NCBI RefSeq assembly: GCF_052324685.1
Contig: NC_135211.1
Location: 9,756,414 to 9,820,413, forward strand
DNA from: Brachyhypopomus gauderio
Taxonomy: Eukaryota > Chordata > Actinopteri > Gymnotiformes > Hypopomidae
Reading direction: 5' to 3'
DNA length: 64,000 nt
How positions within the stretch are numbered: position 1 is the stretch's first letter; each line of letters opens with the position of its first letter. A program made the translations under genes and the position numbers. Under the pieces are notes generated by a model. That model was given only the letters and a program-made list of their open reading frames with translations, did no database searches and had not been told where the DNA came from. Below are positions 2,032 through 24,569 of this stretch, piece after piece.

Positions 2032-2084
2032 TTTCCCACACTTACTTCCACCTCCCGCCAAAAGTAGCTTGTATAGGCACAATG
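2032..2084 (-). promoter_or_regulatory. SOX-CSL composite element (orphan)
   Basis: On the minus strand a SOX-type CATTGT core (2084..2079) is followed 37 bp downstream by AGTGTGGGAAA (2042..2032). The layout matches the promoter elements of her15 and the her pseudogenes, but no gene was recognised downstream. A CACGTG E-box lies nearby at 1987-1992. Confidence 0.55.
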
Positions 2085-2911
2085 CGTGCCACCACCCTGC
2101 GCCACTGCCATTCACCGCGTGGCCCTTCCCTGACACTGTCTCAGCCACACACACAGAGTGTGAGAGGCAGATGCTGAGCGTAATCCTCAGCGTGATCTGT
2201 CGGCAGCATTCCGTCAGCGCGGGACCTAGGAAACCCTTGACCTGCCCTCACTGGAGAGGAATCTCGACCTTAATGGGACGCTCAATGGCATTCGGGGGTC
2301 ACGTGACCCAGCATTCAGGCAGGACGTGAAAAGCCACTTTGAGTGCGAAATTGTGGCATTGTTAAACACCTTCTGCCCCATTAGGAAGCGGCCCCTGTGT
2401 GTCGGCACTTGCCAGCGTGTTCATGGTCATTAAGAAAAAAAAGAATTAAAGAAGCCTGGAGAAAAAACGTTAAATTGTGAGCATTGCGCTAACTCAGTCT
2501 ATCAGTTATAGATGATTAAATATTAGTTATAGATGATTAAATATTTATAAATATTCACATTTCAACAGGTAGCTTAATTGCTCTATTGTTCTGAACCTTA
2601 AATAACAACAGGTGAAATCAGGTTATGGGCAAAGCAGTGGTAATGCATTAAATATGCTCAGTGGTCTCCTTAAGCAGGTGCATGATGTGTGGTTGCACAC
2701 ATGCCTGCAGGGGTGTGTTTGGGTACACGCTGCTGCACCTTGATGGGATCTGTCAATAGGACTCTACCTGTAGGCCTCTCTAAGGTGAGTGGTAGTGAAG
2801 GGGGCTTTGTGTGTGTAAGCAGAGGTCCAGATGGTCTATTGAGGCTGGGGAATAATACAGGACACTGGATCAGTGGCATCAGGGTGGGGCCAGACGCTGA
2901 ATGAGGCCAAA

Positions 2912-2921
2912 GTGTGGGAAA
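2912..2921 (+). promoter_or_regulatory. CSL/RBPJ site (orphan)
   Basis: GTGTGGGAAA preceded by A. No clear SOX core was found 20-50 bp upstream. It lies about 1.6 kb upstream of the first her15 copy, in the same orientation. Confidence 0.5.
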
Positions 2922-3021
2922 CAGGCACAGGTTGAAGCTCTCACACATTCCTCGCTGGAGACGGCTTCTTTGGCCATGCTTAGATACTCGGGCAGCTGGG
3001 CACACCGCCATGGAGAGACAC

Positions 3022-3107
3022 TGTGTGTGTGTGTGTGTGTGTGTGTGTGTGTGTGTGTGTGTGTGTGTGTGTGTGTGTGTGTGTGTGTGTGTGTGTGTGT
3101 GTGTGTG
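3022..3107. repeat. (TG)n microsatellite
   Basis: About 43 uninterrupted TG units. The Cys-Val and Thr-His open frames across it are repeat artefacts. Confidence 0.95.
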
Positions 3108-3780
3108 GTGTATTATGAAGCCATGGCTTTTCTTTTCTGAATGAAAGTCCAGTGTGGAATTAGCCCATTCTTTCAGTGGCGTCATCTGTCATTATGACTC
3201 ACTGCTTAGAGTTGTGTAGCTTAAGGAGAGAAAGTGAGACCACAAAACACGTCAGGATTTCCCTCCAAAGTTAGACTGAACATATGGTGTTCATAGACTT
3301 TAGCAGCATGGTTGAAGTACTCACAGAACTATTTATCATGTCCTTCCATTTAAATGGTGGTGTCCCCTTAAGGGTGATTGTGCGTAAATAAACCATGATT
3401 AGAATTAACAACGATAAATGTGGATGGCGTATGATATAATCTATGGAGTTTTTGTAATGCCTTCCATAATTGTAAGAACTTGGGACATTTTGAAAACAAG
3501 TTCATGTTCACCTCTTCATTATAAGGTGCCTTTGTAGCAGATGGTGAAGCCCATGTCTGTTTAGCAAAAGAGAGAGGGGAGGGGGGCAGCGTACCAGGGG
3601 GTTAGGAGATGTTGCAGCAGGGAGCAGGTGATGTGGGAGTGGTAGGGAGAACATACACGCGTCCCACGAACCAGCGGAGCCTCTGATCTGAGCAGCAAGT
3701 TCAAAGGGCGTTTGTGGAGGCAAGGAGGAGGGGCCTGGGTTCTATTGACTCGAGGACGTGTGAGCAGGATCCTGCCCGGG

Positions 3781-3848
3781 TTTCCCACACTATCTGTCCA
3801 TTTATTACCCCCAACTCTCCAACAGAGAGAGGCTGCACTGAACAATAG
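3781..3848 (-). promoter_or_regulatory. SOX-CSL composite element (orphan)
   Basis: On the minus strand CTATTGTT (3848..3841), within a CACACTTCTATTGTTC block, is followed 50 bp later by GTGTGGGAAA (3790..3781), itself preceded by A. The CACACTTCTATTGTTC block recurs at 14582-14597, and close variants occur at 12330, 7011 and 24570. No gene or TATA box follows on this strand. Confidence 0.6.
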
Positions 3849-3920
3849 AAGTGTGCCGTCCCCGAGGGCATGGGATAATTGTGCTTAATTGACATTTGCA
3901 GTGAATGCATTCCTTTCACA

Positions 3921-3972
3921 GTATGTGTGTGTGTGTGTGTGCTTGCTTGTGTGTGTGTGTGTGTGTGTGTGT
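3921..3972. repeat. interrupted (TG)n microsatellite
   Basis: TG repeats broken by a GCTTGCT interruption, in the interval upstream of the first her15 copy. Confidence 0.9.
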
Positions 3973-4372
3973 GAGTGAAGGAGATTAAATTAAATCTGCT
4001 AAATTAAATAAAATGTGAAATGTGTTAATTTACTTTACAAGCTGCAAAATAAGATGCTGATTACAAAATTTCAATAAAAACTTCAAACAATAAAAAACTA
4101 TTTTAAAAATCTATAACTATAAAAAAGTATCATTCAAATTCCTGCCTGTTTTGTAAATGTGTTTCTGTCAGATAAGGGATATGATGTTTAATCTTTATGT
4201 CACTGGCTTTTGGTCTCCATCTGCAGATAGTTTATCACACAGAGAGATGGTTCCCAGGTAATAAAATTCTAATGACTTGGCTTGTGTTCGGTTTGTGCCA
4301 CTGATATCTGGAAGACCATCTCCTCTGTTGGGACTATGAGGTCAGTTAACCATGAAATAATTGATGCCTCTT

Positions 4373-22434: not shown

Positions 22435-22735
22435 GTCCTGTATATTTAGAATTTTACCCCACTACATGACTGTGAAGAGAGTTTACAGATCAGTTCAAAT
22501 CTCCAAGTTTGTCAAACTTTGCATTTTCTTGTTATGTGATGTACGTGCATGTGTATTGATAGTGATCCCATGCTCCAGGAGGAGATCTGCTCTCTTTACA
22601 GGGTCACAACATTCCCAGATTCACACTGTGTTCTGTTCCCCTCTCCATTACCCCCATCTCTCCACCTGCTCCCCTGAGACATGGACGTTGCCCCCAGCAC
22701 AGAGAACACTGAGCATGTGGCAGCTCCATATCCCT

Positions 22736-22832
22736 CATTGTGTGGCCAAGCTCTCTCATTGGTTACAAAGTGTGAGAAACTCCAACAAGACCGAGACCCA
22801 CACATTCATATGGAGATTTGTGGGTATAAATA
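22736..22832 (+). promoter_or_regulatory. promoter of her pseudogene 3
   Basis: CATTGT (22736-22741), inverted CCAAT box, CSL-type GTGTGAGAAA (22770-22779) and TATAAATA (22825-22832). Nearly identical in sequence and spacing to the pseudogene 2 promoter. Confidence 0.65.
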
Positions 22833-22898
22833 GAGGAGATGCAGCCAGTTCAGATCAGACTCATACTACACAGAGACGTCTACAGCAGAGATACAGTC

Positions 22899-23400
22899 AT
22901 GGCAGAGCAACTGCTGCAATGTTCACTTACCACTGAACAAGGTAAGATGATCTTTAAACAAACAAATCTGTGTGTGTGTGTGTGTGTGTGTGTGTGTGTG
23001 TGTGTGTGTGTGTGTGTGTGTGTGTGTGTGTGTGTTTTTCATTCACCTGATTGTCACTTCATTATTCTCTTAATTATTCACATATCTTTTTTGTCATCAT
23101 TTGCAGTTAAGGAGGGGGTGCTGCACAGAGATCATATCAACTGCTGCGTCAAGCAGCTCAGGTTCCACCATCATCAGAATCCAACCAGAAGCTTCTTGAG
23201 TCCAAGCTGGAGAAAGCAGGTATCCTGGAGATGACCATCCATGTCTCTGGCAGCTGTACAACAGTCTCTGGCAGCTGTACATTCTCCATGAGGTTGTCCA
23301 TGTCCTATCTAAAGATGAAGTGAAGAAACAGTACAAAGGAAAATTGCTGAGTCACTTTTGCAGCCATATGATGAGGAACATGCCTCCTCAGCAGACATAA
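22899..23400 (+). pseudogene. her pseudogene 3
   Basis: A candidate start at 22899 (MAEQLLQCSLTTEQ) leads to a GTAAGA donor after 22941. The intron carries a (TG)n tract and exon 2 starts at 23107 after TTGCAG. The basic region is damaged and frameshifted: after LRRG the correct frame resumes as LHRDHINCCVKQLR. A second shift precedes ESKLEKAGILEMTI. A 20-bp duplication containing CTCTGGCAGCTGTACA lies at about 23248-23285. Homology to pseudogene 2 fades near 23400 and no WRPW was found. Confidence 0.8.
22967..23034. repeat. (TG)n microsatellite in the pseudogene 3 intron
   Basis: About 34 TG units. Confidence 0.95.
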
Positions 23401-24030
23401 AGCACCACGATTAAGAGGACAAGTTCTGCCTTTTAATCTTGGTAGTCCTATAGGATCAAAATGTATCTCTGCTGGCCCTGTTGATCATGTTGGTCTGACA
23501 TTAGCTATTTTGTTTTTCTATTGAGTAAAATTTACTCGTATCCCAGATATAGCTTATGATAAGCTGTTGTCGTCATGTAAATGCAAAAAATTTAATAACA
23601 TTCTTTAAAGCTATACAGGTAAACTGAGCAAAAAGATGAACCTTCTGAATATCCAAATGTAAAATAACACAATATGCTGTTTAGTAAAAGTGTATCTGTT
23701 CTCTGCAGTACAGATCTTTCGCCTTTTATAAAGGTGTTTATGCATAAAAGTCATACTGATGTTCTGAAATTTGTTTCACTTTATTGGAAAATTACATTTC
23801 CTTCTGTGAAGGTTTTCAGCATTGTGTCAATGAAACAAAATTAAGTGAATGTATTTGAATCAAGATATGGCGAAATAAAACAATCAAAAAAACTGTTTTT
23901 AGTTAATTCAGTTCAATCCACAAGTAATCTATGCTTGTGTCACTCACATTATTTGATAGTATATAACTCCTGAAGTTTCGATCATCTCTATCTTTTTTTT
24001 TTATGGGTAATTCTTGGTCTAAATGAATCT
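23400..24030. other. AT-rich intergenic stretch
   Basis: No gene or element was recognised. It is the likely decayed 3' flank of pseudogene 3. Confidence 0.4.
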
Positions 24031-24042
24031 AAAGATTACAGT

Positions 24043-24330
24043 GGGCAGTCATGGTCTGGTGGTAGGGAAACGGTCTTGTGACCGGAGGGTCGTGGGTTCG
24101 ATTCCCAGACCTAAGGCCATGACTGAGGTGCCCTTGAGCAGGGCACCTAACCCCAACTGCTCCCCGGGCGCCGGGCTAGGGCTGCCCACCGCTCTGGGCA
24201 CATGTGATCCACAGCCCCCTAGTAATCACTTGTGTGTGTGTGTGTGTGTGTTCTAACTGCACAGATGGGTAAAAAGCAGAGGACAAATTTCGATTGTGGT
24301 GAAAAATCACAATTGACAAAATATGGCACA
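24043..24330 (+). mobile_element. tRNA-derived SINE, fuller copy
   Basis: The head keeps a Pol III B-box GGTTCGATTCC (24095-24105) and an A-box-like TGGTGGTAGGG. The body matches the copy at 9934-10178. A (TG)n stretch lies near the 3' part. Confidence 0.8.
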
Positions 24331-24432
24331 TTTAACTGTGGTGTATAATTGTAAATGTAAAGGCATGGTGTTGAAATAAATGAATGTGCACTACAGCCAG
24401 TTGGGGTTGATTGCTTTCATAGAACTGCAAAT

Positions 24433-24569
24433 ATTTATATTCCGCCACATCTCTGCGTTTCCAGTCCTGGCTGGGAGGGGTGTTCTGATGCTAATGGCAC
24501 TAGGCTGTGATTCCTTCTTCAGAGGTTTCCCACACTCCTCTGCATTCAGTGATGTTTGAAAGAACAATG
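24433..24569 (-). promoter_or_regulatory. SOX-CSL element with distant TATA (orphan promoter?)
   Basis: On the minus strand CATTGTT (24569..24563) is followed 27 bp later by GTGTGGGAAA (24535..24526), and a TATAAATA sequence follows at 24440..24433. A SINE occupies the region where a gene would begin. This may be the promoter of a her copy that has been lost. It is also the last element of the cluster. Confidence 0.5.

Follow-up and report, generated by a model that had tools for sequence, protein, structure and literature searches.

Why does a SOX-type core recur upstream of the CSL/RBPJ sites of a fish her cluster, and does the recurrence reflect anything beyond coincidence? The question is raised by a 64,000-nucleotide stretch of the Brachyhypopomus gauderio genome (the window), whose initial annotation described ten SOX-CSL pairs of fixed order and spacing, took them to imply joint SOX and Notch input, and knew of no such array as a repeated unit in a her cluster. 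We find that the SOX-CSL array is real and non-random, and that it is more structured than the initial annotation had said. The explanation that we favor, and hold to be somewhat probable, is that the pairs are Notch-response elements reiterated across a hes5-type her cluster, which would combine SOX and Notch input and would descend from the hes5 promoter plan.

Results

CSL sites (YGTGRGAA) were scored blind to SOX, the SOX cores were those of the initial annotation ([C/T]ATTGT or CTTTGT), and gaps were counted as the bases separating the SOX six-mer from YGTGRGAA. Positions 1-26,000 of the window contain 20 CSL sites and positions 26,000-64,000 contain seven; AGTGTGGGAAA is present in 11 copies in the first interval and in none in the second. 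Within 1-26,000, a same-strand core lies 20-55 bp upstream of 10 of the 20 sites and 24-33 bp upstream of eight; in a collapsed set of 18 sites, which omits the recent copies at 22771 and 8545, the corresponding counts are nine and seven.

If such pairs arose by chance in AT-rich DNA, aided by a favorable choice of spacing, a core as short and common as this one (175 in 64 kb) would supply them readily. However, all of the controls fell below the observed count. Random placement (3000 runs) produced means of 1.30 pairs for 20 sites and 1.14 for 18 at 20-55 bp, with a maximum of six in each, and a mean of about 0.4 (0.34 for 18 sites) at 24-33 bp, where no run reached the observed number. The three other configurations were rarer: at 20-55 bp, cores were upstream on the opposite strand at one of 20 sites and downstream at three and two, and at 24-33 bp the respective counts were 0, 2 and 0, both of the two being her15 A/B copies. 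Dinucleotide shuffles of 1-26,000 (n = 300), which contain 3.9 CSL sites on average, gave a mean of 0.2 pairs (maximum 2) at 20-55 bp and of 0.05 pairs (maximum 1) at 24-33 bp. Letter-permuted cores (n = 19) averaged 1.16 of 18 sites at 20-55 bp; the sole high count, seven for TATTG, comes from a string that overlaps the real motif, and the next highest was three. Chance pairing is contradicted by each of these comparisons and is almost certainly wrong.

Upstream same-strand cores at this distance were found at none of the seven CSL sites in 26-64 kb, and of the weaker RTGRGAA sites outside YGTGRGAA, none of the 17 in 1-26 kb and one of the 24 in 26-64 kb had such a core. Because the position and strand of the cores are specific to CSL sites, the objection that the initial annotation had raised against itself (i.e., cores at random distance and strand once all CSL sites are scored blind) does not hold. 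All ten pairs stand at the positions first given for them, as does a decayed pair at 18631 (core end 18637, AGTGGGAGAA start 18666); the gaps then listed are 1-3 bp smaller than those of our recount, reflecting a different counting point. The original description of a constant order and a mostly 24-31 bp gap is borne out for order, and for spacing it has to be relaxed from constancy to preference: eight of the ten gaps fall in 26-32 bp, and among the nine non-copied elements seven are confined to a range of 7 bp (p = 0.005, compared with a uniform distribution over 20-55 bp). As for the suggested three helical turns, phasing is marginal (p = 0.05 only), and we do not claim it. There is kinship among the elements, so these p-values overstate their independence.

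The conserved sequence is longer than a SOX core. The aligned box reads GGCACACTTC-TATTGT-TC and extends over about 18 bp. In a blind ranking of 8-mers upstream of the 18 CSL sites, TCTATTGT came first, found at five of the 18 where 0.08 would be expected (p = 1.1e-8, uncorrected for the 65,536 words), and the top 6-mers were CTTCTA, CTATTG, GTGGCA and CACTTC. A box matrix was trained on nine of the ten elements (22771 omitted). With training boxes included in the ranking, leave-one-out matrices placed six of the nine among the top 8 of 51,952 positions and ranked E4409, E2032 and E16831 at 45, 213 and 4807. The nine best matches of the full matrix in 64 kb are all upstream, and on the same strand, of CSL; they comprise eight training boxes and a degenerate element at 1541 on which the matrix was not trained, and E16831 is outside the 40 best. 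Given the low rank of E16831, the elements therefore form two classes, one with the long box and one, in the her4-like promoters, where CATTGT stands alone at that distance. CSL-like, CACACTTC and CTATTG pieces are also clustered at 6661-6712, in another order (CTATTGGCACACTTC...GTGGGAAGG...GTGTGAGAAG).

A conserved stretch longer than a SOX core could indicate that the box is regulatory and that its main reader is not SOX, i.e., that GGCACACTTC-TATTG binds a different factor, or a factor pair in which SOX is optional. In keeping with this, CTTCTA, GTGGCA and CACTTC score about as high as CTATTG in the blind test, and the element at 1541 retains GGCACGCTTCTAT with TTGT lost. Once the promoter copies are included, however, ATTGT or CTTTGT is what the elements have in common; CTATTGTTC matches what we take to be the SOX consensus, and both her15 promoters contain CTTTGTAATGCAAAT, which we assume to be a SOX-octamer type composite. 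With functional Sox2 sites in mouse Hes5 added to this (PMC5825848), a reader other than SOX appears unlikely.

The promoter-proximal copies can be compared with mouse Hes5. CSL and TATA are 54-55 bp apart in five her promoters, of which three belong to intact genes (her2-like, her15A and her15B) and two to broken copies at 16.8 and 22.8 kb. A SOX site precedes CSL in three of the five (her15A, 16.8 kb and 22.8 kb) and is absent from her15B and her2-like. Panaliappan et al. (2018) printed a 278-bp mouse Hes5 promoter with four Sox2 sites mutated, the outermost of which are given at -212 and -99 (PMC5825848). The mutant blocks CACCCT at 67 and CACCCG at 180 correspond to these two positions if +1 follows the last base of the fragment, and similar inner blocks occur at 106 and 160. 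The blocks at 160 and 180 end 28 and 8 bp before CSL, compared with 29 bp for CATTGT and 8 bp for CATTGG in the fish element E16831, a correspondence in which the wild-type mouse letters are deduced from the printed mutant and the weakest link is the assignment of block 160 to a Sox2 site. Read in this way, the SOX-CSL layout seems to fit the mouse Hes5 promoter too. The proximal promoters of mouse and human Hes5 share with the fish unit AGTGTGGGAA, a TATA 53 bp on (the CSL-to-TATA distance of mouse Hes5), conserved Sox2 sites upstream, four in number, and a weak, cryptic head-to-head partner (5/8 in mouse) with a 16-bp offset. They differ in that the unit belongs to one promoter there, whereas in the fish it is repeated at promoters and distal places, and the longer GGCACACTTC box of most fish elements was not seen in the mouse sequence. 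The printed mouse promoter has GATGCTAATG near a distal TTCCCACA, which may be compared with the ATGCTAAT sites of the fish.

Sox21 reportedly represses Hes5, and the SOX site might serve as a brake, with SoxB2 (Sox21) or SOX2 about 28 bp away hindering assembly of the Notch intracellular domain (NICD) on CSL. In one cancer setting, breast cancer cells, SOX2 bound and co-precipitated RBPJ, their chromatin immunoprecipitation (ChIP) signals overlapped and Notch targets were repressed (PMC11628624), so that the SOX effect may have either sign. At the mouse Hes5 promoter, however, Sox2 activated through its sites: mutating all four abolished activation by Sox2 in cells, and a Sox2 ChIP signal was obtained at these sites (PMC5825848). 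We regard the brake as very unlikely.

In known sequence-paired sites (SPSs), the CSL site has a head-to-head partner 16 bp on, or 15-17 bp on according to in vitro work (PMC7685452). Partners were scored as TTCYCACR at offsets 4-59 (56 offsets). For the 13 collapsed AGTGTGRGAA sites, 16 bp ranks first of the 56, with a mean of 4.15 of 8 against 2.51, which was reached in none of 20,000 resamplings; it is again the best offset for all 18 sites (mean 3.72, p = 0.0002), and the nine core-bearing sites average 4.22 there (p = 0.00035). No 16-bp signal was present in three control sets, namely the seven CSL sites of 26-64 kb and the 15 and 18 ATGRGAA sites of 1-26 and 26-64 kb, and head-to-tail scoring of CSL gave none at 16 bp either. 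The best head-to-tail offset for CSL-like matches in 1-26 kb was 25 bp (3.39 of 8 over 18 sites, against a mean of 2.45). In its head-to-head orientation and 16-bp spacer the signal resembles the SPS of Hes1, from which it differs in that the fish partner is degenerate: at 16 bp, eight of the 13 sites score 5-6 of 8 (at least 5 is attained at 6.8% of positions) and none exceeds 6, and the two partners of 7/8 lie off this offset, that of 2913 at 17 bp and that of 3782 at 15 bp. The sites at 804, 19142 and 24527 have partner scores of at most 4 within 15-17 bp. Since single partners are weak, as in mammalian Hes5, the 16-bp partner may be taken as a weak signature of the group and not as proof of dimers.

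Several elements are kin, paralogous copies that did not arise independently, a point that the initial annotation did not stress, nor did it stress the CSL sites that have no core. E16831 and E22771 (cores 16796 and 22736) are in 96%-identical copies, and E14624 aligns with E24527 (74% identity over 92 bp) and E19142 (74% over 69 bp), in both cases spanning SOX core and CSL, and with E3781 (75% over 48 bp). As judged from these alignments, E14624, E24527 and E19142 are related over 48-92 bp, and E3781 probably belongs to the same group.

Such kinship suggests that the array could be a by-product of tandem duplication, in which copies of one or two old promoters have diverged and the distal ones now lack function; the recent copies, the related group and the three neighboring her4-like genes, all broken, would agree with this. 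Zone identities from 500-bp global alignments of seven element pairs give a divided answer. In four pairs identity is not clearly highest at the element, the flank equaling or exceeding it for E14624 with E19142, E7057 and E4409 and for E24527 with E19142. The three pairs that do peak at the element are unexpected for neutral copies: E14624/E24527 (element 0.73, flanks 0.48-0.60), E14624/E12289 (0.65, flanks 0.32-0.57) and E14624/E3781 (0.67, flanks 0.35-0.55). Moreover, AGTGTGGGAAA is letter-perfect at its 11 places, nine of them outside the her15 promoters, whereas the broken her4-like promoter at 11.4 kb has lost its element, an (AC)n run at 11430-11480 having replaced the SOX core, CATTGG and the 5' half of CSL. 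A mere by-product of duplication is, in our judgment, quite unlikely. At 18618-18675 the box is retained and the CSL site spoiled. An origin from a transposon was rejected, in that self-comparison of the sequence (self-BLAST) shows no repeat family at the elements beyond the gene-promoter copies. The exact composite pattern had no match in the prokaryotic genome collections searched, and a her15 protein query against prokaryotic contigs returned 30 pattern matches, none of them a relative.

The elements and genes are listed in Table 1. The first 8.5 kb hold three intact two-exon bHLH-WRPW genes (her2-like, her15-like A and her15-like B; HLH by Pfam), and hes5-type copies near 11, 17 and 23 kb all have broken reading frames. 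These names were given by resemblance, and 'her4-like' is what we presume the three broken copies to be. The two her15-like genes form an inverted duplication (4382-5133 and 7825-8579; 99% identity over 755 bp, identical proteins), which may be a recent copy, gene conversion or an assembly artefact. Because the hes5-type genes of zebrafish form two clusters, her4/her12 and her2/her15 (PMC8320183, PMC10112928), the window is very likely a teleost her2/her15 region.

Table 1. SOX-CSL elements, related sites and her genes of the window
Feature	Position	Strand	Description	Additional features
her2-like gene	185..708	-	intact; bHLH, WRPW end	promoter CSL 804-811, start 54 bp before TATA
Degenerate element	1541..1587	+	GTGGCACGCTTCTATGGG, then CSL 1580-1587	box-matrix match outside training set
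E2032	2033..2084	-	CSL 2033-2040, core CATTGT 2079-2084, gap 38	box GTGGCACG-CATTGTGCC
E3781	3782..3861	-	CSL 3782-3789, core TATTGT 3842-3847, gap 52	full box GGCACACTTCTATTGTTC; CSL-partner-like TGCTCACA, 7/8 match, 15 bp beyond CSL
E4409, her15A promoter	4360..4416	+	core 4374-4379, CSL 4409-4416, gap 29	TATAAA 55 bp from CSL start
Composite CTTTGTAATGCAAAT	4442..4456	+	between CSL and TATA of her15A	copy in her15B promoter at 8505-8519, minus strand, between CSL and TATA
her15-like gene A	4547..5116	+	intact, 152 aa, WRPW end	
E7057	7005..7064	+	core 7019-7024, CSL 7057-7064, gap 32	box GGCACACTTCCTTTGTGTC; partner GCCCCACA at 16 bp
her15-like gene B	7842..8414	-	intact	protein identical to her15-like A
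her15B CSL	8545..8552	-	SOX core absent	inside 99%-identical inverted copy 7825-8579
her4-like broken copy	10793..11646	-	frame disrupted	
E12289	12289..12344	-	CSL 12289-12296, core 12325-12330, gap 28	box ACACACTTCTATTGT
E14624	14565..14655	+	core 14590-14595, CSL 14624-14631, gap 28	ATTAGCAT; box CACACTTCTATTGTTC; partner-like TTCACAGT, 5/8, at 16 bp; preceded by ATGCTAAT at 14565
her4-like broken copy	16631..17500	+	frame breaks in exon 2	
E16831, promoter of broken her4-like gene	16796..16890	+	CATTGT 16796-16801 (gap 29), CSL 16831-16838	CATTGG 16817-16822, gap 8; TATA 54 bp from CSL start; partner GACCCACA at 16 bp
Decayed element	18618..18675	+	box with GTATTGTTC	CSL degraded to AGTGGGAGAA
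E19142	19096..19149	+	core 19110-19115, CSL 19142-19149, gap 26	box GGCACACGTCTATTGTCC
her4-like broken copy	22576..23320	+	frame disrupted	
E22771	22736..22830	+	gap 29	copy of E16831 before another broken her4-like gene
E24527	24488..24594	-	CSL 24527-24534, core 24564-24569, gap 29	flanked by ATGCTAAT at 24488 and 24587

A fainter remnant at 13089-13423 resembles her exons (LLEKTVSFF...NGYSRCIRD); Pfam gave no match for its 13187-13423 portion, and the promoter-like stretch before it seems, by eye, to be without a CSL site. Inside the her array, between E19142 and E22771, a Tc1/mariner-type element at 19738-21384 has inverted arms of 214 bp that match at 97% and a transposase frame (HTH_Tnp_Tc3_2, DDE_3) that runs uninterrupted for 340 aa, and an imperfect palindrome of about 370 bp at 8766-9137 (71% self-complementary) is possibly a miniature transposon. 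The remaining window contains Tc1-type remains, other transposon-like frames, an SPMIP1-type frame and a filamin-repeat frame.

Discussion

The sequence, order, spacing and enrichment of the sites, along with the group signal at 16 bp and the kinship of several copies, are the observations from which we infer binding proteins, cooperation, target genes and an ancestral plan. In the reading that we favor, that of reiterated Notch-response elements in a hes5-type her cluster, each element would consist of a SOX-type site and, in most cases some 28 bp downstream of it, a CSL/RBPJ site; the latter is often followed, after about 16 bp, by a weak head-to-head partner. The SOX site would be read by SOX proteins, probably the SoxB1 factors of neural progenitors, in view of the core sequence, the presumed SOX-octamer type composite in both her15 promoters and the mouse data. 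In neural progenitors, SOX would mark the element as being both open and competent; NICD-RBPJ assembled beside it would switch transcription on, and without Notch, RBPJ would hold the element off. The promoter-proximal copies would retain the old hes5 plan of SOX, CSL and TATA, and the distal copies would be diverged duplicates that, to judge by position only, may serve her2 and both her15 genes as additional enhancers.

Several results weigh against this interpretation. At half of the 20 CSL sites, that of the her2-like promoter among them, a SOX core within range is missing; her15B has none either, since the 7825-8579 homology stops beside the core at the duplication boundary, and the gene is nonetheless intact. 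Two gaps (38 and 52) fall outside 26-32 bp, and the box matrix was trained on elements preselected for a core. Identity clearly peaks at the element in only three of the seven pairs; with local similarity among the elements, part of the constancy of spacing is, as far as the alignments tell, inherited by shared descent, and the sign of selection is confined to some pairs. The 16-bp pattern was spotted by eye in a few elements (the first look covered 15 sites) before it was scored, E19142 (2/8) and E24527 (3/8) have no partner at 16 bp, and the isolated cryptic pair of mouse and human Hes5 acted in cells as a single site that was not dimer dependent (PMC7685452). Hes5 expression in the olfactory placode reportedly depends at first on Sox2 rather than on Notch (PMC5825848), and the repression of Notch targets by SOX2 in breast cancer cells has the opposite sign to the effect proposed here.

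Comparable systems share parts of this organization. In the Drosophila E(spl) complex, the SPS+A code, common to clustered Hairy/E(spl) members, combines an E-box for proneural bHLH factors with paired CSL sites. The fish array likewise belongs to a clustered Hairy/E(spl) family and joins a putative tissue-factor site to a CSL site with a weak signature of pairing; the tissue factor of SPS+A is, however, a proneural bHLH protein at an E-box, and the fish elements have no E-box in a common place. The SPS+A code itself was rejected for this locus, as 10 of the 16 CSL sites examined have an E-box of a searched form within 120 bp, at scattered offsets. The only equal offset is that of the copied pair 16831/22771, and three CAGCTG occur at +79 to +85 (2913, 12289 and 7057). 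Arterial enhancers combine SoxF and RBPJ motifs, as in Dll4, whose intron 3 enhancer is said to need both; the Flk1 intron 10 enhancer remains active after loss of both motif types unless GATA input is reduced, and RBPJ mainly represses in veins (PMC4894770). These enhancers differ from the fish elements in being endothelial and single, with no array and with no fixed order or gap seen in the part of that report available (PMC4894770).

The geometry lends partial support to the joint SOX and Notch input first proposed for this locus, an input that is not new in kind because a CSL-bearing Hes5 promoter with Sox2 sites has been published (PMC5825848). A reiterated SOX-CSL array was not described among the titles and abstract openings listed by the literature search, as the initial annotation had supposed, which is a weak negative given that subscription papers were mostly outside the search. 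The two box strings occurred in none of the texts searched for the letters of the elements, and among the matches listed the only Hes5 paper was PMC5825848. The array is a new arrangement of known parts.

A bolder and decidedly tentative proposal is that these parts make up a vertebrate SOX-plus-SPS code (SOX core, CSL some 28 bp on, and a cryptic partner after about another 16 bp) that would have operated at hes5-type promoters from the common ancestor of fish and mammals onward, and that would have been multiplied in fish her clusters as a distributed shadow-enhancer array coupling Notch output to SoxB1 level. The array bears on the old question of why the same Notch signal gives a neural output only in SOX-positive progenitors. 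Because a single locus offers ten natural variants, and its decayed and core-less copies can serve as internal controls, how far the SOX core, its distance and the cryptic partner are needed is directly measurable here; and if the layout holds true on wild-type mouse sequence, it would amount to a cis-regulatory grammar common to fish and mammals.

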